A stretch of 36,287 bases of DNA, from positions 1-36,287 of the forward strand of contig JAAYJH010000076.1 of assembly GCA_012523035.1 (NCBI GenBank), written 5' to 3'. This document shows positions 15,490-25,641 of the stretch, piece after piece. The first letter of the stretch is position 1. Each line of letters begins with the position of its first letter. Both the position numbers and the translations under genes were made by a program. The notes below the pieces were generated by a model. The model saw only the letters and a program-made list of their open reading frames with translations. It ran no database searches and had not been told where the DNA came from. This DNA comes from Fibrobacter sp. (GTDB lineage: Bacteria; Fibrobacterota; Fibrobacteria; Fibrobacterales; Fibrobacteraceae).

Positions 15490-16989
15490 ATGCCAAGTTC
15501 AATTCTCTGTTTTGTTCGCTTTTTAAATGGAATGCGTCATAAATTATATAAAGCAATGATGAAACCTAGTCATGTATTTTTATTGGTTTTTTGTGTTTTT
15601 TTTGTTCAAATCCATGCAAAAAACCTTTTAGCCCATGAGAAAATCTCTATAGAGTCTCCTTCTATTCATATCGATTCCAACCAGGTCCTTCCATTGTGGC
15701 TTCCTCTTAGTGAAATCATACTCCAAAACACCGTGGTTTGGGCTCGAAATCACTATATTATGGATTACAACTATGCAAAAATCAGCCTGAGCACATGGAA
15801 AGCTAATTTAAATCATAGTTGGACATGGGATAACAACCATTTTGCTATTAATTTTTTTGGACACCCTTACCAAGGAGTTTACTACCATGCTGCCGCTAGA
15901 AGCTCTGGATTAAATTTTTATAAATCATTGGTTTATGATATGTTTGGTTCTTTTACATGGGAGTTTTTTGGAGAAAGAGAAAAACCTTCTTTAAATGATT
16001 TTGTGATCACTAGTTTTGCGGGAGCCATGTATGGAGAAATTTTATTTCGATTGGCAGAAAGGCTGCTTGCTAAAAAAAGCCCGAGTTATTGGGATCATTC
16101 TTTGGCTTTTGCAATGCAACCCTACTCTTACATTCACCAGCAAGTATTTGGAAAACGCCCCAACAATCCAGGTTATGTGCCCATAGAGTTTTCTATTTTT
16201 GGAGGTATAGGTTCACGATTTGAGAGTGACTACCGCTACGATAAGAAGCCCGCCAAAAGGCTCGATGACAACTGGAAAGATGTATTTGGTGTGGGTGGAT
16301 TCGATTTAGTTTATGGCAAAGCCAATCGTATTATAAAAAAACCATTAGAGTATTTTACTGTCTCTGCTTCTCACGAAGAAGGGAAAAAGAATAGACTTTT
16401 TCAAATGGAAGTGCTTGGAAAAATAAAAAACTCACACAAAAGTGCTAAAAATGATTTTTTTGATATCGCTACTTATAGTGCCTATGATTTATTCTACGGG
16501 AGTTTGGTCGAAATGAGTGCATTTTCTTTGGGTTTAGGCACCGACATTAGCGTCCATTTAATATCTAAAATCCACTTTAGAGTCTATAGCATCTCTAGTA
16601 TAGTGGTGTTGGGGGCCACCGATTTTAATTATGATGACATTTTAAAAGAGTTTTACCCAGAATATGAGCCTACTCGAACATACCAAATAAGTTATGGTTT
16701 GAATTACAAGACTGGCTTTTCGGCTCGATATAAACAATTAGAGTTTATGCATAAGTCCAACATTTTTTTACTTAAAACCATGCCTGGTTCTTTACCCCAC
16801 TACGGAGCCGATGGATGGGATATAGTGGGTTTTAACTATTCTGATCTTAATTTTTATTTACACCAAAAATTTAATTTTGGAATAGGACTCAAACACTATT
16901 TTAAAGTTTCTGCATATAGTGGAGAATATTTGGAGCCTATGTCTAGGACAATGCTATCCACCAATGTCCATATTCGCTATCATTTTTAA
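15490..16989 (+). CDS. DUF3943 outer-membrane protein
   Basis: The frame is 499 codons from 15490. Internal ATGs at 15532, 15556 and 15559 are all plausible starts, and the last gives the cleanest signal peptide (MKPSHVFLLVFCVFFVQIHA). No candidate has a strong ribosome-binding site. The core NNHFAINFFGHPYQGVYYHAAARSSG matches DUF3943, with the conserved FxxHPYxGxxYxxAARSxG block. The rest is rich in alternating aromatic strands and ends in phenylalanine (RYHF), as outer-membrane barrels do. Function is unknown; the family is found in Gram-negative envelopes. It follows the GH5 gene after a 219-bp spacer with no clear terminator. Its stop codon overlaps the stop of the convergent membrane-protein gene by 4 bp. 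Confidence 0.82.
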   Translation: MPSSILCFVRFLNGMRHKLYKAMMKPSHVFLLVFCVFFVQIHAKNLLAHEKISIESPSIHIDSNQVLPLWLPLSEIILQNTVVWARNHYIMDYNYAKISLSTWKANLNHSWTWDNNHFAINFFGHPYQGVYYHAAARSSGLNFYKSLVYDMFGSFTWEFFGEREKPSLNDFVITSFAGAMYGEILFRLAERLLAKKSPSYWDHSLAFAMQPYSYIHQQVFGKRPNNPGYVPIEFSIFGGIGSRFESDYRYDKKPAKRLDDNWKDVFGVGGFDLVYGKANRIIKKPLEYFTVSASHEEGKKNRLFQMEVLGKIKNSHKSAKNDFFDIATYSAYDLFYGSLVEMSAFSLGLGTDISVHLISKIHFRVYSISSIVVLGATDFNYDDILKEFYPEYEPTRTYQISYGLNYKTGFSARYKQLEFMHKSNIFLLKTMPGSLPHYGADGWDIVGFNYSDLNFYLHQKFNFGIGLKHYFKVSAYSGEYLEPMSRTMLSTNVHIRYHF

Positions 16990-17816
16990 TTTTTTTTAGA
17001 TGATTTTAGCTGCCTAGTTTTACTCCTTAAACGCTCAAGTGGCATAAAAGAAAAGAAAGGCGTGAGCACAAAGTAATAAGAAATCCAATAAAAAACACAA
17101 AGCAAAACATATGGCAAAATGGCATCTAAAGTCCATTCGTTGAGCATATAAAGCACTAATAACAGAGCTAAAAGGGGGCTCACAAGCACATTGAGGTTTT
17201 GTTTTAAAGAGGCTTGGATCAATGAACCCGTTTTTGGAGATCCACTTTTTAAATTTGCTCCTACACTATACGCCAAAGTCAAAGAATCTGCGAAAAACAA
17301 AGAGATAAAAAAGAGATAAACTGTAAAATTCAACTGAAAATAAGTGGCCACAGCAGTGACTAAAGATGCACTCAAATAAAAAGGAAGCAAGATTTTAAAA
17401 GTTGCTTTTGGAATAAAAAAAGAACCGAGAAAGCTAAGAATGAGCAAAGACACATAAATAGGAATCACCACATTATCGGAACCATCTAAAATAAAAAAGG
17501 AGCCCAAAACCAAGAAAAGGGAAAATAAAGAAAATAACACCGAAAACAAAGAAGACAAAAAGAATCTGATGATCAATACCACAACAAGCCCACCCCAAAG
17601 AGGAATCCATGATAGAAAAACCTTAGGTTCTACCATGATCTGTTGTATTTGCATGGATATATCTTCAGAAGCTCCCACTAAAAAAGTGAAAAAATCGTTT
17701 TTATAACTATAAGTACCACCCAAAGCGGCTATAAAAAGCAAAAGAAACACCAATCTTAATCGAAAAAGAATTTCAATAAATCGTTTAGAAAAAGAAGCTT
17801 TTTTTCGTAATTCCAT
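16986..17816 (-). CDS. Polytopic membrane protein, last gene of the C25-protease cluster
   Basis: This is a 276-residue protein with about seven or eight hydrophobic helices, a basic N-terminus (ELRKKASFSKRF) and a basic C-terminal tail (RLRSKTRQLKSSKK). I do not recognise a family. It starts 2 nt after the protease stop codon, and the GAGG ribosome-binding site lies inside the protease's last codons, so its translation is probably coupled to the protease. Membership in the protease operon suggests a role in envelope export or quality control, but that is inference from position only. Its stop TAA overlaps the convergent DUF3943 stop in a shared TTAA. Confidence 0.75.
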   Translation of the reverse strand: MELRKKASFSKRFIEILFRLRLVFLLLFIAALGGTYSYKNDFFTFLVGASEDISMQIQQIMVEPKVFLSWIPLWGGLVVVLIIRFFLSSLFSVLFSLFSLFLVLGSFFILDGSDNVVIPIYVSLLILSFLGSFFIPKATFKILLPFYLSASLVTAVATYFQLNFTVYLFFISLFFADSLTLAYSVGANLKSGSPKTGSLIQASLKQNLNVLVSPLLALLLVLYMLNEWTLDAILPYVLLCVFYWISYYFVLTPFFSFMPLERLRSKTRQLKSSKKN

Positions 17817-17818
17817 TT

Positions 17819-20800
17819 TTACCTCGAAATAACTAATTTTTGTTTAGCAGAAAACACTTGTTTTGAGTGAAACTCTGTTGCAGAAACATCATTTTTAACA
17901 GAATAATGATATAAACCATTGGCTAAAAGTCGCCCATAAAAATCTCGACCATCCCAAGTGGTTTTACCCGATTTAGCGTTTTTAAGGACTTGAACCAAGC
18001 GGCCATTTTGATTGTAGATATAAATGTTTATTTTTGTTTCTCGCTCGACGGCTAAATTTTTGAAATGAAAAGTGGTTGTTTTTTTCATTGGATTGGGTGC
18101 ATTGAAAACATCCATTAGTCCTTTTGTCAAGGCGTTGGTCAACTCCACAAAAACAGACTTAAAAGCCCTGTTACCCATCACATCATAGGCCTGTACCTTA
18201 AACTCATAAACACCTGGTGAAAAATCTGTCTCAGAAAAAGACATTCTCGATACTACTTTTTTACTGCTTTGTTCTAAAAAGGGCCATGGGTGAAAAGGTG
18301 TCATCACGCCCACTACTTCAAAACTAATGCCTTCGTCTGCCTCTTCTCTAAAATCCAACGCGGTGGAATCTTCTACTACAACTTCTAAGCAAGCAGGTAA
18401 TTCTAGCTGGATCTTTCCTCCATCCATAATTCCAGTAGAAGAAGACTTTAAACAAGAACGAATTTGAATACTAGGAGGGCTTTGATCTTGGATGGAATCG
18501 GCATAAGCAGAAGTGCCCGAAACTTTTATTCCGTCAATTAAAGCTGTGCCTACAAATGGATTTTCAGCAGAATAAGCCCAAGCATATACTTGAGCATTGG
18601 TATCTCCAAATGCTATTTTTCTCGGCGTGATAAATTCTGTATTAAATTGCCCTCGCTTCACTTCTATGATTTCTGAATAAATAGGATTTCCTGAGTAAAC
18701 TACATCAAACCAATCTTCTATCCCATCGTATATTTTTTTGGTGTAATCTCCTTCTCTCACACTCACATATATTCTACCATTAGGCATATCAGAAACTGTA
18801 CCAGAAACTTGCATTTTATCTAAAGCCATGATCGTGTCTATTTTTTCATTCAATTCCACTTTTAATTTAGCTTGAGGAATGGTCAAAACAGGCTCACCCA
18901 GCAAAGCATAGTGTTCGTTATTGTAGCGTTGCCTTGAATAAGATCCTCGGTGATATCCTTTGGCAGCCCAATAAGCATCTCCCAATAAAGCACTTTCATT
19001 AAAAAGAGAGCTCATTATAAATGTTTTTGCAAAAACTTCATTATAAGAGGCAAAAGTCTCTCTTGTGGCTCCCACAGAAGCAATCGCACCTTTTTTGCTA
19101 GCCCCTAAAAAAACTTCGGATAAGGAAGTCTCGTCGCCTTTATCAAATCGCCCTACAGTACAAGAAAAAGAACCCAAAATAGTGTAGCGATTTTGATTGG
19201 AAATTTTATCTATATAAGAAGGTTTCATAAGCCCTTCACTAGCCCAATCTGTGATGGAACCATGACCAAAATACAGAGTAAAAAGAGCCCCTTGATTGAT
19301 ATTATCAATCAAATCACTGGCTGCTTCTGGTTTTTGAAATAAAGCATCTGGCTTATAATCTAATAAATACACTTTTTTATAGTCAAAACGAGTGCGTTTT
19401 AATTTCGCTTTTTGATTTATTTCTTTAGCAATTTCTTCGTGAATTTTAGTGTGATTGGTATAATCAATAGAGCCACTATTCAAAGCATCGTCGGCAGCCA
19501 AAATAAGTGTGCTACGCCAAGGGCCATTATCAAAAACACCGATTTTTTCATATTCTTTTACTTTTTCGTTGTAGGCATGAAAGGCTGCTACCGAAGAAAT
19601 AGAAAGACGACCCACAATCACATCTAAATCATAAGTACCATAAGTAATAGATTCTCCTGGGTCTAAAACAGCAAAGAAATCGTCGGTGGCCATCGCTTCT
19701 TTTTCAAAAGGCGGCAAGTGAATCTCTGGAAGTTTGGAGTTGATGCGTCGATAATCGTAATGACCAGATCCTCCAAGTAAAACATATTTTAGATGGGGGC
19801 ATACAGAACGAGCATAGGCAATATAATTTCGAATGGCAATAGGGTCTAAACTCCCTCCATTATACAATCTATAAATATCTTCTGCCAAAACAATGGTGGT
19901 TGGAATAGATTGGATACTCTCTCCACTGGCTCTAAAAGAGGCTAATTCTAAAGCCGGGACTTGAAAAGCTTCAGGTGCAATGATTAAATATTCAGTTTTG
20001 GAAGAAATAGCCTCCAAGTTTTCTAAAACACCTTTTTGTCGAGGTATTATGGCCTCTATTTGTAGATCCGTTTTAAAATGCCCCTCTTTGTAAAGCAAAT
20101 AACGAACATCCTCTCCCTTGCCGATACTATCGATAGCGAAACCATTTTTGGATTCTAAAACTCCAAGAGCCTCACCATTTTTAAATTTTATGATTTTATT
20201 TTTCGAAGGGACAGGGATTTTTAATAAACCTAGGTGTGTTCCGGGCAACAACCACTCTGTACTATCCGTTTTAGGCTCCCATTCATAGGCTAGACTATAA
20301 CCCTTAAATCGATCAAAATACCCTTCATTAGGAAGCATTTTTAACGAGAATTTATTGTCTTTTTCGTTTAATTGATTTGTTTTGAAGTAAAAATTACCAC
20401 CTGGAAGTAAAATAGGATCCACCAAAGGAACTCCATTTAATTCTGCATTAAAATTAATTTTTTCCATTCTTTGTGAATCATGGTATCCAGAATAAGATGG
20501 ATTTACAACTTGTTTTAAATCACCCACTTTAGAAATAATCGTGGAACGATGTGGTAAATAAGAATAGCTGACATAAGCTTCTGTTCCCTTTTTATAGGAC
20601 TTTAATTCTGAAGTCGAAGGGCTATACAAGTCTGAACTGGAAAGCTCTAAAGTGTCATTAAAAGAATGCCAATACCAAAACCACTCTTTACCAGTCGCTG
20701 ACTCCCAAAATAAAGGCTTTCCAAAATATGTGTCTCGTAAAATCGATTCTTTTTCTACTCTTGTATAATGCAACCAATTTATTTCTTTTGCATTGGTGGA

Positions 20801-21880
20801 CTTAGAAACCGAAAAAGGCTTTAAGTTTTTTGTCGCAGGACTATTAGACCAACCTAATTGAAAATACTGGAAGTAACTATAAGGAGAATTTGAAAAGTAA
20901 TAAGGTGCCGACACAGAATCACTCATCTTTTTCCAAATAGAAGTTCCATAGCCAACAAAAATCAATGTATCTCCATCATCAAAAATTCCGTTTGATTTAG
21001 GATCTCTCCCATTATGGTCTCGAATTTCTATGGGAATTTCAAACAATTTATTGGGGAAGACTTCTTCTATATCTTGAAAAACATCCGACAAAGTATCTGC
21101 AATGGCACCATACAACTTCCATTTAGAAATGGGAACGCCACTGAAATTATCAGGAACACCGGCAGCCATTAAAACATTTTTGATTTCACTAAATGGGACC
21201 GCATAAAGCCCATCTTCATTTAAAGAAGAAATTTCTTTGTCTCCGACTGCAAATCGTGCCACCCACTCCATTGAAGCCATTTTTGAAGCCGCTTTTTTCC
21301 GTAAAACACTTCCATTGTGCTTTCGAGCCCATTTCGACGCACTTTTGGGGTTTAAAACGGTAGATAAAACTCTTTTTCCAGGCCTTTGTCCTCGATGATT
21401 TGTCTTTTTAAAATGAACGACAACTTCAAAAATCTCTCTAAACTTTGGATATAGCAACAAAGGCACAGCAATATCTGTGAGCCATAGTCCATCTTTGAAA
21501 AAAGGAACCCCAACTTGTAATTTTGGACTTGATAAAGAATCTTCTTGACACCATGGAAAGCTCATTTGTTTGCTTTGAATCTCTTTGATTTCTACCCTTG
21601 GGGGTGTGGAATCTGGAAGTGCAACTCTATAAATTCGATAAGGCAAAGCAGAATCATCTATGAATCGAACCTGTTCAGGGCTCAGTTTATAACCTCCAGT
21701 CTTACAAGATTGCACCGAATAATTCAGCACGGAGTCGCGATAAATAAATTGAGAAGTCTGGTCTTTTAAAACAGATGCAGAAAAACTGAACTGAAATAAA
21801 AAAGCACCCACAAACAAAAAGATGTTAAAGTTAAATTTAACATTTTGAAACATTTTTAAGCTTTGTCTAAAAAAAATCAT
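17819..21880 (-). CDS. Gingipain-type (C25) cysteine peptidase with C-terminal FlgD/sorting-like domain
   Basis: This is a 1353-residue exported protein. The signal peptide lies within the first 36 residues. The start could be 21880 or the ATG at 21853, which gives a tidier signal; neither has a strong ribosome-binding site. The catalytic domain spans about residues 630-960: YVLLGGSGHYDYRR (699-712), acidic TDDFFAVLD, catalytic His H873 in LYFGHGS, and catalytic Cys C907 in GSFSCTVGRFD. These match peptidase family C25 and the PorU-like group. Residues about 1265-1350 form a FlgD Ig-like domain (YNQNGRLVQVLKNAKSGKTTWDG begins about 1300), commonly used as a sorting or anchoring module in FCB bacteria. 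Likely location is the periplasm or cell surface. Whether it is a maturation sortase or a secreted protease cannot be told from the sequence. No type IX secretion genes are in the window. Confidence 0.88.
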   Translation of the reverse strand: MIFFRQSLKMFQNVKFNFNIFLFVGAFLFQFSFSASVLKDQTSQFIYRDSVLNYSVQSCKTGGYKLSPEQVRFIDDSALPYRIYRVALPDSTPPRVEIKEIQSKQMSFPWCQEDSLSSPKLQVGVPFFKDGLWLTDIAVPLLLYPKFREIFEVVVHFKKTNHRGQRPGKRVLSTVLNPKSASKWARKHNGSVLRKKAASKMASMEWVARFAVGDKEISSLNEDGLYAVPFSEIKNVLMAAGVPDNFSGVPISKWKLYGAIADTLSDVFQDIEEVFPNKLFEIPIEIRDHNGRDPKSNGIFDDGDTLIFVGYGTSIWKKMSDSVSAPYYFSNSPYSYFQYFQLGWSNSPATKNLKPFSVSKSTNAKEINWLHYTRVEKESILRDTYFGKPLFWESATGKEWFWYWHSFNDTLELSSSDLYSPSTSELKSYKKGTEAYVSYSYLPHRSTIISKVGDLKQVVNPSYSGYHDSQRMEKINFNAELNGVPLVDPILLPGGNFYFKTNQLNEKDNKFSLKMLPNEGYFDRFKGYSLAYEWEPKTDSTEWLLPGTHLGLLKIPVPSKNKIIKFKNGEALGVLESKNGFAIDSIGKGEDVRYLLYKEGHFKTDLQIEAIIPRQKGVLENLEAISSKTEYLIIAPEAFQVPALELASFRASGESIQSIPTTIVLAEDIYRLYNGGSLDPIAIRNYIAYARSVCPHLKYVLLGGSGHYDYRRINSKLPEIHLPPFEKEAMATDDFFAVLDPGESITYGTYDLDVIVGRLSISSVAAFHAYNEKVKEYEKIGVFDNGPWRSTLILAADDALNSGSIDYTNHTKIHEEIAKEINQKAKLKRTRFDYKKVYLLDYKPDALFQKPEAASDLIDNINQGALFTLYFGHGSITDWASEGLMKPSYIDKISNQNRYTILGSFSCTVGRFDKGDETSLSEVFLGASKKGAIASVGATRETFASYNEVFAKTFIMSSLFNESALLGDAYWAAKGYHRGSYSRQRYNNEHYALLGEPVLTIPQAKLKVELNEKIDTIMALDKMQVSGTVSDMPNGRIYVSVREGDYTKKIYDGIEDWFDVVYSGNPIYSEIIEVKRGQFNTEFITPRKIAFGDTNAQVYAWAYSAENPFVGTALIDGIKVSGTSAYADSIQDQSPPSIQIRSCLKSSSTGIMDGGKIQLELPACLEVVVEDSTALDFREEADEGISFEVVGVMTPFHPWPFLEQSSKKVVSRMSFSETDFSPGVYEFKVQAYDVMGNRAFKSVFVELTNALTKGLMDVFNAPNPMKKTTTFHFKNLAVERETKINIYIYNQNGRLVQVLKNAKSGKTTWDGRDFYGRLLANGLYHYSVKNDVSATEFHSKQVFSAKQKLVISR

Positions 21881-21901
21881 GCTAGCTATAAGATAATAAA
21901 A

Positions 21902-22726
21902 TCACTTTGGTAAAATAATTTCCATCAGGTAGTACCCAGAACCATTGCTTAAAAACTGCACTTTCTCGCCATTTTTCATAACTTTATAAAATATCCTATA
22001 AAAATCTGGATTCTTTTCGGATTCAAATATAGCAAAAAGCTCTTGACTAGAAATTTTAGAATCTTTTATCCAAGACTTCATATACCAATGCCACGGTTGC
22101 CAATTGAAAATAGAACGCGTCGATTGAATAAAAGAACGAAGCATTAAAGAATATTCGTACTCAAAAAAATCTAAAAATTGAAGGACAAGGCCTTGTTTTT
22201 CAGCATTTGATTTTTTGGAAAAATTTTGAGGGTAAAAAAGAGTGGTTGCGTCTGGATTCTCGTAAATAAAACGAATCCTATCAGGAAAAACCTTGATTTT
22301 CAAACGAGAATCATCTCTATGTTCATAAGAATTTTCATCTATTGGCTTGTAATCGAAAAAAATCTTTTCTGCATTCAACACAGGGTGCATTTGCAAATCC
22401 ACTGGCGAAGTTGAAATATTTTGAACTCGAAAAACTCGAAGTTTTTCTGCTTTTTTATCTCCATCTAAAACAGCCATCAAAAAAGTGTTTTCAATTTCTT
22501 TTAAAACCCAAATAGACTTCGAATTTTTAAATGGAAGGAGGAATTCCTCTTGAATACCATTAGGATCATAATGCATCCAATTCCCTCGTTTGCCAATAGA
22601 GTCTAAATAATGGTACAACTCTTTAGAATTAAAGCCCTTATTTGTTTTATGTGTCTCAAAGATTAAATCCTTTGAAAAGGCATAGGAGCATAACAACAAA
22701 AAGAAAATAAAGAACTTTTTTTTCAA
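21902..22726 (-). CDS. Unknown secreted protein with TTG start overlapping upstream stop
   Basis: This is a 274-residue protein. The frame is open further upstream (to 22783), but I place the start at the TTG at 22726. It overlaps the upstream TGA as TTGA, has AGAGG 7 nt before it, and begins exactly at a signal peptide (KKKFFIFFLLLCSYAFS). The mature part has no motif I recognise. It is mixed charged/aromatic, with a PDATTLFYPQNF strand region and a tryptophan-rich FNWQPWHWYMKSWIKD segment near residue 210. The C-terminal part looks beta-rich. It sits between the PDZ-thioredoxin gene and the C25 protease, so a periplasmic role with them is likely, but function is unknown. Confidence 0.72.
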   Translation of the reverse strand: MKKKFFIFFLLLCSYAFSKDLIFETHKTNKGFNSKELYHYLDSIGKRGNWMHYDPNGIQEEFLLPFKNSKSIWVLKEIENTFLMAVLDGDKKAEKLRVFRVQNISTSPVDLQMHPVLNAEKIFFDYKPIDENSYEHRDDSRLKIKVFPDRIRFIYENPDATTLFYPQNFSKKSNAEKQGLVLQFLDFFEYEYSLMLRSFIQSTRSIFNWQPWHWYMKSWIKDSKISSQELFAIFESEKNPDFYRIFYKVMKNGEKVQFLSNGSGYYLMEIILPK

Positions 22727-23487
22727 TGGATAACCTCTTGAATTATTTTCTCGATTTGATTTTGTGTAGGGACACCGGTCCAAACTTTTTGTATATAACC
22801 ATTCTGATCTAACAGCATCAAAGTAGGGATAGAAGAAATTCTATAATGATTCGAAAACCGCCTATCACTATCTTGATATAAAGGGTAAGGAGAGGCTTGT
22901 TTTTTATTAAAACTTTGTAAAGTCGATAAATCCTCAGTAGAAACGCCTATAATCTCTAAGCCTTGTTTAGAATATTTTTGATACAAAGTCTCTAAAATAG
23001 GGAGAGTTTGTCTGCAAGGCATGCACCAAGTGGCCCAAAAATCTAAAATCACCAGTTTTGGCTTCTTTTGTCTTTTGTTTTGATTGGCATAAAAATTAGA
23101 ACCAAACTCCACAATTTGACTCCCTATTGCAGAACCCATCCAATTCGAAATATCTTTTGGCCTTTCTCTAAGGCTAATAGAAACATGATGAGTTTTATTT
23201 TCTCTTTGATAAGTTAATGAAACCTTTTCTCCCACTTTTTTATTTTGAAGCTCTTTTTTTATATCGGCGACGCTTTTTATCTTTTTATTGTTAATGGCTA
23301 TAACTTTATCTTCACTAGAAAGGCCCGCTTCTATAGCCCCAGAAGAAGGATGCAAACCTTGAACCACAAGAGCGATCTGATCTTGGTAACTTTCTTTTTT
23401 AAAAGAAAAACCGAGCCATACTTCGGCCCATAAAGATGAAACAGACATAAAGAGCAGGAATAAAACAAAGGAAAAGCTTTTTTGCAT
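22723..23487 (-). CDS. Exported PDZ-thioredoxin (TlpA/ResA-like) fusion protein
   Basis: This is a 254-residue protein. An N-terminal signal peptide (residues 1-21) is followed by a PDZ domain (about 24-108; GAIEAGLSSEDKVIAINNKKI) and a TlpA/ResA-type thioredoxin domain (about 143-254). The redox motif is W154-C155-M-P-C158, with the cis-proline P221 in SSIPTLMLLD. Such thioredoxins work in the periplasm as thiol reductants or oxidants, often for cytochrome maturation or particular envelope proteins. The PDZ domain would add peptide or C-terminus binding. GGAG precedes the ATG at 23487; a GTG at 23490 is less likely. It overlaps the next gene by 4 nt. Its position just before the C25 cysteine protease suggests control of that enzyme's thiol, which is inference. 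Confidence 0.88.
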   Translation of the reverse strand: MQKSFSFVLFLLFMSVSSLWAEVWLGFSFKKESYQDQIALVVQGLHPSSGAIEAGLSSEDKVIAINNKKIKSVADIKKELQNKKVGEKVSLTYQRENKTHHVSISLRERPKDISNWMGSAIGSQIVEFGSNFYANQNKRQKKPKLVILDFWATWCMPCRQTLPILETLYQKYSKQGLEIIGVSTEDLSTLQSFNKKQASPYPLYQDSDRRFSNHYRISSIPTLMLLDQNGYIQKVWTGVPTQNQIEKIIQEVIH

Positions 23488-23507
23488 CACAAGACTCCAA
23501 TAAAAAA

Positions 23508-24076
23508 CTAAAAGAATAAAATAGAAAATTCCCAGTGCAATACCACTTGATTTGTCTCTGAAACACCAAAAGAATTTTTAGAGCTTTCTAAATGCTCAAA
23601 AAACAAATAAGACACATAAATTACACCCCTCCAATAGAATTGAGCCTCTGGCCAAGGCGTAAAATTCTTGCCATAGCCCAAGGCCACTCTTGGAGGGAAC
23701 TTCCATCCAGCATGATTTTCAAATAAAAGACCAGAAACAGAACTCATAAAAAAATCTTCTGGTTTAAAATAATAATGAAGTCTGGATCCAAATTCAAAGC
23801 GAGACTCTAGTGGATCGGTAGAAAAATAAAGCCCTGCCGAAAAACTTGGATGGAATTGATACTGACTCGAAGCATACAAAGACCAATCGAGCTGACTGAA
23901 AAGAAAAGAAAAGCCTGTTCCTAATCCGTAGCTAAAAGATTTTGATTCCGCTTTCTTTTCAAAATAAGTTTCTTCAAGAAAAAAATGTGACGAATAAGTA
24001 TTAGAAATACAAAAAAAACCACGAGAAAAAAAACTCGAACAGCACTTATTTTCAAGTGAAAAGCCAAGACTTTCAT
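23508..24076 (-). pseudogene. Outer-membrane-barrel-like protein interrupted by a one-base frameshift
   Basis: Two overlapping frames make one protein-like sequence. From the ATG at 24076, 17 nt after the pyrD stop, frame A reads a signal-peptide start (MKVLAFHLKISAVRVFFLVVFF). Frame B is open from about 24085 to the stop at 23508, with no usable start until a TTG at 23879. Long before that TTG it already reads barrel-like sequence (EETYFEKKAESKSFSYGLGT, then GFSFLFSQLDWSLYASSQYQF). One extra T in the T8 run (A8 on the plus strand, 24011-24018) would join the frames as FFLVVFFCIS-NTYSS, a good signal peptide, giving about 189 residues. The end WEFSILFF has a terminal phenylalanine. It could be a sequencing error, a real decay, a phase-variable switch, or transcriptional slippage. 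No family is recognised. Confidence 0.65.
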
Positions 24077-24092
24077 CTGTCTATTTTTTGCT

Positions 24093-25253
24093 TTAATGAT
24101 GATTGAACTCCATGACACTGTCTATATTATGAAGCCTTAATTGTTGTAAAAGCTCTCGATTCATCGCATGGGGGGCCATCCAGCGAAAGGCCACCACCGA
24201 ATACACTTGAACTGCATCTACTCCTAACTTTAACAAATCAAATATTTTATAACCATGATCTATACCACCAGAAGCCATCACACTGAGCGTAGGGTAGTTT
24301 TCTTTCACAAAACTCACAGACCTGCACATGTTTTCATAAAGAGGCCTTCCAGAAAGCCCTCCCTTATCTCCATCCTCTCGAAGCACCTCTAGCTCTTCAT
24401 AAGGACTCATTAGTGCAAGCGAATTTAATTTAGCTGTAGGGTATGTGTTTCCTAAAACAAGCCCATTGACTCCATTTTGAAGCAGCATCTCTACCATCAC
24501 TTGAAGATGAGGTGTAGACAAATCTGGACTCAACTTGGCATAAACCGCTTTTCTTGTTTTTTGAGTGCTTCGAAATTCATTAATACTCTTAAAAAGTTTC
24601 TCTGCAAACGCAGTATCTAAATCCAATCGATCTTCGCCCGTATTGGGGCAGCTAATGTTCACTTCTATATAATCGGCCACAGCATAAGCCATAGCAAAAG
24701 TTTCTAAAACATCTTTTAGCTTCTCATTTTCCTCTGTTAAGCCTGGAGTCTCAGCTATAGAAATACCAACAGAAAGACCTTTTTTATGTGCTTTTGAAAG
24801 CTGCATTTTGACTCGCTTGGCTATTTGCTCCACGCCATCATTATTCAAGCCCATGCTATTGTGTATGGCTCTATCTTTTTCTATAAAACCTAAACGAGGC
24901 CGATGCGTATTGCCTATTCTAAAATGCCTAGTCGCCGTGCCCACAGAAATCCCACCAAAGCCTACATTGGCATAATCCGAAATGCGTTTAGCCCCTTTAT
25001 TCGCTCCAGCCGCCAAAATAATGGGACTACTCAAAAAAATAGTCTCGCTTTGATCTGCAAAAGCAATCTCTTTTTTAAGAGGAAGATGAGAAACAGCCTT
25101 GGCTCCAATGCATGGAATCCATGGAGAAAAGCGTGCCACATATTGAAAAGAATGGTGTCGAAACTCGGGGTATTTATGAAACACTTTTCGAATTAAAGCG
25201 AGAAAACGATCGCTTTTAGACAAAGGATAATCGTGATTTATAGGACTCTTCAT
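24093..25253 (-). CDS. pyrD: Dihydroorotate dehydrogenase-like enzyme, class-2-like layout with catalytic cysteine
   Basis: This 386-residue FMN-binding barrel oxidises dihydroorotate to orotate in pyrimidine synthesis. Class-2-like features are the extended N-terminus, GGISVGTATRHFRIGNTHRPR (residues 100-120) and the INxxGLNN-type NSMGLNNDG (132-140). FMN-site motifs include the later KLSPD and MASGGID. The active-site loop reads NISCPNTGEDR, placing cysteine at 202. Class 2 quinone-linked enzymes normally have serine there (NxSSPNT), and class 1 enzymes have cysteine. The N-terminus lacks the hydrophobic helix of many class 2 enzymes. The electron acceptor is therefore unclear. No ribosome-binding site is obvious at 25253. 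It is the first gene of the cluster that ends with the C25 protease and lies just after the repeat element. Confidence 0.88.
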   Translation of the reverse strand: MKSPINHDYPLSKSDRFLALIRKVFHKYPEFRHHSFQYVARFSPWIPCIGAKAVSHLPLKKEIAFADQSETIFLSSPIILAAGANKGAKRISDYANVGFGGISVGTATRHFRIGNTHRPRLGFIEKDRAIHNSMGLNNDGVEQIAKRVKMQLSKAHKKGLSVGISIAETPGLTEENEKLKDVLETFAMAYAVADYIEVNISCPNTGEDRLDLDTAFAEKLFKSINEFRSTQKTRKAVYAKLSPDLSTPHLQVMVEMLLQNGVNGLVLGNTYPTAKLNSLALMSPYEELEVLREDGDKGGLSGRPLYENMCRSVSFVKENYPTLSVMASGGIDHGYKIFDLLKLGVDAVQVYSVVAFRWMAPHAMNRELLQQLRLHNIDSVMEFNHH

Positions 25254-25320
25254 ATTGAACTAAAATAGCAAAATAAAACACCGAAACACTATAAAAAAAT
25301 TAAAAGCTCACTACAATAAA

Positions 25321-25621
25321 GTCTCACACACGCCTGGCTTTTTTTTAAAGTGAGAAGTGGAAAGTGGGAAGTTTTTAGTCACTAAAGATAAACAGCTTTT
25401 TTTTGGGCACGCATTCCAGCATTTCAAACACAATTTTCACATGGATTACCACGGGCACGCACTTCGACAGGCTCAGTGTAGCAATTTTCGCATGGATTGC
25501 TACGAACAAAATCCTGCTTTTCAAGCACGCTTCCCACCGTCATGGCGAATACAGCATGGTAATCCACACGAGATTTGTTTTTTTTGCTGTATAGCTCCAA
25601 ACCAGGCGTGTGTGAGACTTC
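25321..25621. repeat. MITE-like intergenic element with perfect 17-bp inverted ends
   Basis: GTCTCACACACGCCTGG at 25321-25337 is matched by its exact inverse at 25602-25618. The 301-bp segment between pyrD and the ABC ATPase gene has no credible coding sequence. Inside are direct partial repeats 50 bp apart (CAATTTTCACATGGATTACCACG from 25431 and a near copy from 25481). An inverted relative ends at about 25570. The motif ACTTCGACAGGCTCAGTG (25461-25478) and a CGTCATGGCGAA...GGTAATCCA stretch (25538-25565) resemble interspersed repeats found in many bacterial genomes. I see no target-site duplication and no transposase. The element fills most of the 388-bp gap at 25254-25641. Confidence 0.6.
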
Positions 25622-25641
25622 TATACCTTTAGAGTTTATTC

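Follow-up and report, generated by a model that had tools for sequence, protein, structure and literature searches.

Six genes lie close together on the minus strand of a 36,287-nucleotide contig of Fibrobacter sp. (JAAYJH010000076.1, assembly GCA_012523035.1; the whole of this stretch is referred to as the window), and one of them encodes a protein of peptidase family C25. The locus raises the question of which process the C25 protein serves and which of its neighbours belong with it. The genes occupy positions 16986-25253 and follow each other in the transcriptional order pyrD, a small outer-membrane-barrel-like gene, a gene for a PDZ-TlpA/thioredoxin protein (PDZ-thioredoxin), a gene for an exported protein that could be assigned to no family (UNK), the C25 gene and a gene for a polytopic membrane protein (MEM); the gaps between them are 16, 17, -4, 21 and 2 nt. 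This layout was correctly given in the initial annotation, and profile searches agreed with its identification of pyrD, of the PDZ and thioredoxin domains with their WCMPC motif and of Peptidase C25, in which Cys907 and His873 are present. It had further proposed that the row corresponds to no described system and that the thioredoxin is dedicated to the protease. We consider a different explanation likely, namely that the C25 protein is a PorU-type sortase of the type IX secretion system (T9SS), that the row consists of two joined gene blocks, that UNK and MEM are candidate helpers of the sortase and that the PDZ-thioredoxin is an incidental neighbour.

The C25 protein scored 227.8 bits against PF01364 and is the single match to that family in the source genome (2.2 Mb in 125 contigs). 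When a profile of 15 C25 proteins of the family was compared with the PDB, the best match was PorU (6za2; E 9.8e-54 over residues 629-1346), and the window sequence alone matched 6za2 only (E 9.9e-25, residues 609-1327). In the alignment to 6za2, His873 pairs with a PorU His and Cys907 with a PorU Cys; both residues are kept in 40 of 41 alignment rows, the remaining one (G025) being truncated, and from its sequence the enzyme looks competent. The resemblance to PorU of Porphyromonas gingivalis (6za2, NF033707) extends to the region trailing the catalytic domain, to a C-terminal T9SS-type domain and to the presence of T9SS genes in the same genome. The gingipains Rgp and Kgp, also of family C25, share the catalytic domain, whereas the 15-protein profile matched Lys-gingipain far more weakly (E 7.8e-12) and the alignment to PorU continues almost to the C-terminus. 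The PorU2-like model (NF052324) matched the C25 region at 76 bits, far below the 353.5 bits obtained with the PorU model NF033707 (best stretch residues 619-1351). By these comparisons PorU is a closer relative of the protein than the gingipains or PorU2 are. The sorting domain TIGR04183 was recognised at its C-terminus with 26.2 bits in the genome search (cut-off 23) and 21.4 bits in the protein scan; the Pfam equivalents of this domain stayed below cut-off. What the initial annotation had suggested seeking elsewhere in the genome, a PorU, has thus a candidate in the C25 protein itself, and the view that the locus has no described counterpart did not hold.

Other T9SS genes were found in the source genome. 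SprA/Sov was matched with 1037.8 bits and exceeded its cut-off in all 41 genomes searched; two places exceeded the PorV-family cut-off of 90 (138.4 and 100.5 bits), and T9SS sorting domains were detected at 38 places, 34 of them over cut-off, one being the C25 protein. The T9SS has been reported in the Fibrobacteres-Chlorobi-Bacteroidetes group, and PorU has been described with PorV, PorQ and PorZ (PMC8754138, PMC11205867, PMC11285876). The T9SS has been proposed to export and anchor cellulases of F. succinogenes, whose sorting domains are apparently removed; the same article names no sortase for them, and the word PorU occurs in its text 0 times (PMC6851124). No description of the present cluster was found in the accessible portions of the open-licence literature on Fibrobacter, PorU and type IX secretion. 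If the C25 protein works as PorU does, its own C-terminal domain should carry it to the cell surface by way of the SprA pore. There it would remove the C-terminal sorting domains of T9SS cargo proteins and link these proteins to an acceptor in the outer membrane.

Table 1 Features of the window discussed in the text
Feature	Position	Strand	Remarks
DUF3943 protein	15490-16989		convergent with MEM, overlaps its end
MEM, polytopic membrane protein	16986..17816	minus	RND-half-like fold of six transmembrane helices in the model; no large periplasmic loops
PorU-type C25 sortase homologue	17819..21880	minus	1353 aa; PF01364 E 3e-67
C-terminal T9SS-type domain of C25 protein	about 17822-18112	minus	
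C25 domain	18881-19990	minus	within C25 protein
Cys907 of C25 protein	about 19160-19162	minus	aligned to PorU Cys
His873 of C25 protein	about 19262-19264	minus	aligned to PorU His
UNK, exported protein	21902..22726	minus	unrecognised family; TTG start overlaps PDZ-thioredoxin stop by 4 nt
PDZ-TlpA/thioredoxin protein	22723..23490	minus	WATWCMPC; PF13180 1e-14, PF00578 2e-19
Small outer-membrane-barrel-like gene	23508..24076	minus	no Pfam family above cut-off
pyrD, dihydroorotate dehydrogenase	24093..25253	minus	closest to quinone type; PF01180 7e-40; NF003652 9e-52, below cut-off; first gene of the pyrD-barrel-PDZ-thioredoxin block
22-nt inverted repeat	25319-25620		95% complementary arms separated by 258 nt; lies between an oppD-like gene and pyrD

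Gene order was compared in two samples. The first comprised the 41 genomes, among them 25 of the window's own family (f1, G000-G024, with G000 the window genome); the second comprised 76 distinct loci, corresponding to the best 80 of 108 stretches confirmed by the C25 profile, from Fibrobacter, Fibrobacteraceae, Fibrimonadaceae/Fibrimonadales and related metagenome-assembled genomes. The two are not independent because several loci are the same contigs (L122/L034, L073/L044, L072/L049). The PorU model was matched in 40 of the 41 genomes, the exception being a 71% complete one (G015), and in G025 only a C-terminal piece was found. MEM was found in 25 of the 41 and adjoins PorU in 19 of the 25 family genomes; it lies elsewhere in G004, G007, G014 and G023 and is fragmentary or weakly matched in G015 and G025. 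The UNK profile matched 24 of the 41 genomes. UNK adjoins PorU in 11 of the 25 family genomes (G000-G003, G011-G013, G017-G019, G022) and the PDZ-thioredoxin gene in five genomes (G000, G003, G013, G005, G010); it is away from both in G006, G008, G009, G015 (partial), G016, G021 and G024, about 8 kb from the PDZ-thioredoxin gene on one contig in G021. Partial or weak matches in G014, G020, G025 and G026 were left out of these placement counts. In the sample of named loci UNK immediately precedes PorU in 57 of 76, or in 55 of 72 if only loci with 900 nt or more of upstream sequence are counted; MEM immediately follows PorU in 65 of 76, or in 65 of the 72 that leave room for it. The grouping made in the initial annotation therefore stands well for UNK, C25 and MEM, but not for the PDZ-thioredoxin as a dedicated member. 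Tandem pairs of PorU-type C25 genes were also seen, in L087, L108, L057, L062, L066 and L068, with MEM between the two in L087 and L108.

The PDZ-thioredoxin gene is part of another gene block, located apart from PorU in most relatives. A full-length orthologue, that is a match covering both the PDZ and the thioredoxin part, occurs in 19 of the 25 family genomes. In three of them (G000, G003, G013) the gene adjoins UNK-PorU, and in 16 it is away from PorU, on another contig, 69 kb off (G011) or far away on a single contig (G016); G015, in which no PorU was found, is counted among the 16. At these 16 separate loci the barrel gene adjoins in 15 (not in G022), and so does pyrD, the contig ending in G015. 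No full-length PDZ-thioredoxin was found in six family genomes (G004, G007, G014, G019, G020, G023), four of which (G007, G019, G020, G023) have a completeness below 90%. Orthologues with 33-36% identity are present in eight genomes of another family (f3), and at four of those loci (L179-L182) no barrel or pyrD match was found. The gene is thus scattered in relatives, an outcome which the initial annotation had itself counted against its proposal, and on gene order the protein is not supported as a dedicated redox partner of the C25 enzyme.

The PorU tree, built from 31 of the 41 alignment rows (six g15 genomes, the second copy of G037, G025 and both G030 rows being left out), has at its base in the family genera g6 and g11, where pyrD-barrel-PDZ-thioredoxin-UNK stand together and PorU-MEM elsewhere, followed by g5/g8 and then by g1-g4, g7, g9 and g10; the branching order among these last groups is open. 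The arrangement labels require four changes on this tree, the least possible. On the simplest reading PorU-MEM would have become placed behind UNK before the divergence of g1-g4, and the join between the PDZ-thioredoxin gene and UNK would have been lost later in g2 and g3. Since UNK is found behind the PDZ-thioredoxin gene also in two deep-branching genomes, it bridges both blocks. In this lineage two conserved blocks, pyrD-barrel-PDZ-thioredoxin and PorU-MEM, seem to have been set end to end, with UNK linking them. Six close genes on one strand are by themselves unremarkable; the recurrence of the array in genus g4, with both halves kept across the family, is more than chance.

Several observations weigh against the explanation we prefer. 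The NF033707 score of the window protein is under the curated cut-off of 420, which was exceeded in 7 of the 41 genomes, and since it falls short the protein is called here a PorU-type homologue and not PorU; its first approximately 600 residues are longer and divergent and did not align to PorU, and its neighbours UNK and MEM set it further apart. UNK and PorU are separated in eight or more family genomes, and neither UNK nor MEM is universal, as some genomes outside the family have PorU and SprA but neither of these two. In the tree the labels were assigned by genus, and G019 was labelled as having all six genes though its contig begins within UNK and a full-length PDZ-thioredoxin was not found there. 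A T9SS has a GldL/GldM motor and a GldK/GldN ring. GldL exceeded its cut-off in none of the 41 genomes (four weak matches), GldN likewise in none of the 41, and GldM was not found in the window genome, the one genome searched for it; no control genome was matched in these searches, so that absence of the three is not shown.

The PDZ-thioredoxin has to be accounted for. WATWCxPC is kept in all 24 homologues examined. Like TlpA/ResA-type thiol-disulfide oxidoreductases the protein has a thioredoxin domain with WCxxC and, as judged by eye, is exported; it differs from them in its fused N-terminal PDZ domain and in scoring below the curated cut-offs of their models. Across the homologues (L034-L182) the motif is CMPC or CIPC in PorU-linked loci, CVPC in G005, CLPC in G006 and CGPC in the others. 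Within the cluster, conserved exposed cysteines are confined to PorU, so a thiol protein could act on it; no Cys occurs in the last 150 residues of 15 of 19 barrel open reading frames or in the last 235 (the mature part) of 58 of 67 UNK proteins.

One possibility, which we put forward tentatively, is that the PDZ-thioredoxin aids disulfide formation or repair in general, in PorU and in other envelope proteins. Cys59 and Cys111 of PorU occur together in every family genome in which the region is present (it is lost with the N-terminus in G007) and are absent together outside the family; Cys1143 and Cys1164 occur together in all alignment rows except G040, which has neither. Such a pattern fits two disulfides in PorU, one of them family-specific, the pairing being read from co-occurrence; against a need for this particular protein, genomes in which no PDZ-thioredoxin was found retain both pairs.

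Alternatively, the partner could be the small barrel, whose terminal aromatic residue a DegP/DegS-like PDZ domain might bind during outer-membrane assembly. The PDZ part does match DegP and DegS models, below their cut-offs, the barrel gene is its neighbour at nearly all separate loci, and a C-terminal Phe ends 17 of 19 barrel open reading frames (four of the 19 representing two contigs seen twice). A terminal Phe is, however, a general feature of outer-membrane barrels, and no barrel was found beside the PDZ-thioredoxin gene in G022 or at the four f3 loci, so we regard this partnership as possible and rather doubtful.

Ordinary gene crowding, with operon-like spacing and no functional link among the six genes, would agree with the housekeeping nature of pyrD and with neighbour pairs that vary among genera. 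It seems unlikely, given that the UNK-PorU-MEM order is kept across many genomes whose UNK and MEM have diverged to 33-49% and 24-42% identity to the window proteins, and that UNK links both blocks. The redox switch proposed in the initial annotation, in which binding of the PDZ-thioredoxin to the protease would control the state of Cys907, could draw on the three family genomes in which the two genes are neighbours, on the cysteines confined to PorU and on CMPC or CIPC in the window and two g4 genomes against the commoner CGPC, but it is very improbable in view of the separation in 16 of 19 genomes, of PorU keeping Cys907 (as well as Cys1143 and Cys1164) where no full-length PDZ-thioredoxin was found, of the orthologues in f3 and of CVPC and CLPC occurring without PorU linkage. 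We return to the explanation preferred above, in which the PDZ-thioredoxin would be a more general envelope thiol protein with an incidental link to PorU here.

UNK and MEM, as exported and RND-half-like proteins respectively, would then be candidate lineage-specific helpers of PorU. Neither matched a Pfam or NCBIfam family at E 0.1. Scattered weak Pfam matches among UNK members (best Leukocidin, 0.019, in 3 of 20) and its top PDB match (E 0.013) were taken as chance. UNK carries a conserved FNWQ.WHWY motif and was modelled with AF2 at a mean predicted local distance difference test (pLDDT) score of 89.4; the model had no Foldseek match at E <= 0.001 and at best a VIA Z of 5.3 over residues 18-103, and such weak structure matches to a model do not show a new fold. 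For MEM, single-member Pfam matches (best Peptidase_M50B, 0.0028, in 1 of 20) were likewise taken as chance, and no PDB entry was matched by sequence. In the VIA search with its model (pLDDT 89.3) all 50 of the 50 matches listed belong to the RND superfamily. The highest Z was 13.4, over 205 residues at 5.6 A, which is near the background level that the tool gives for helical proteins, and the best Foldseek E was 0.77. The predicted fold may be likened to one six-helix half of AcrB, MmpL5, SecDF or NPC1; it differs in having no large periplasmic domain and no significant sequence or Foldseek match, and A3 does not keep the acidic residue in front of SLTLAYSVG. MEM is accordingly described as RND-half-like in its model and is not shown to be an RND protein. 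The DUF3943 gene also adjoins MEM in L034, L044, L048 and L049.

The barrel gene is present but not in the form first described, its start and body being in different frames. The frame of the ATG at 24076 has a signal-like start and stops after about 52 residues; that of the body, ending at 23508, is open but lacks an ATG, GTG or TTG start upstream of 23879. The stretch between them holds two T8 runs, beginning at 24033 and 24018 (region about 24011-24033), and the orthologues in L122 and L073 are each one open frame. The interruption may reflect a sequencing error, a genuine break or slippage. Of the four signal peptides claimed initially, hydrophobic N-termini were seen by eye on the PDZ-thioredoxin, UNK and C25 proteins, whereas that of the barrel is out of frame with its body. 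Beyond pyrD, pieces of window positions 25300-25630 match 80 places in the genome, their own site included (206 candidates, 40 scored), and hence belong to a dispersed repeat family. A defence function was also considered; PADLOC gave no match for the C25, UNK, PDZ-thioredoxin or MEM proteins.

Taken together, the findings point to a PorU-type sortase locus that includes two uncharacterised families of partners and has, in this lineage, become joined to a second conserved block, with which it is perhaps co-transcribed. The thioredoxin story is its weakest part, and the case for a dedicated thioredoxin switch is removed; UNK and MEM are the parts most worth testing. Fibrobacter species are major cellulose degraders, and it is a speculative idea, to which we give little credence, that Fibrobacteraceae run a divergent T9SS machine for surface attachment in which the PorU-type sortase acts with two lineage-specific partners, UNK as a member of a new exported family and MEM as an RND-half protein, perhaps presenting or moving a lipid-linked acceptor for cargo such as cellulases, and whose motor and ring proteins escape recognition as GldL, GldM or GldN. 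The analysis raises the question of what powers the T9SS in this phylum, and it leaves one candidate sortase gene in this genome, together with two partner families, now open to testing.

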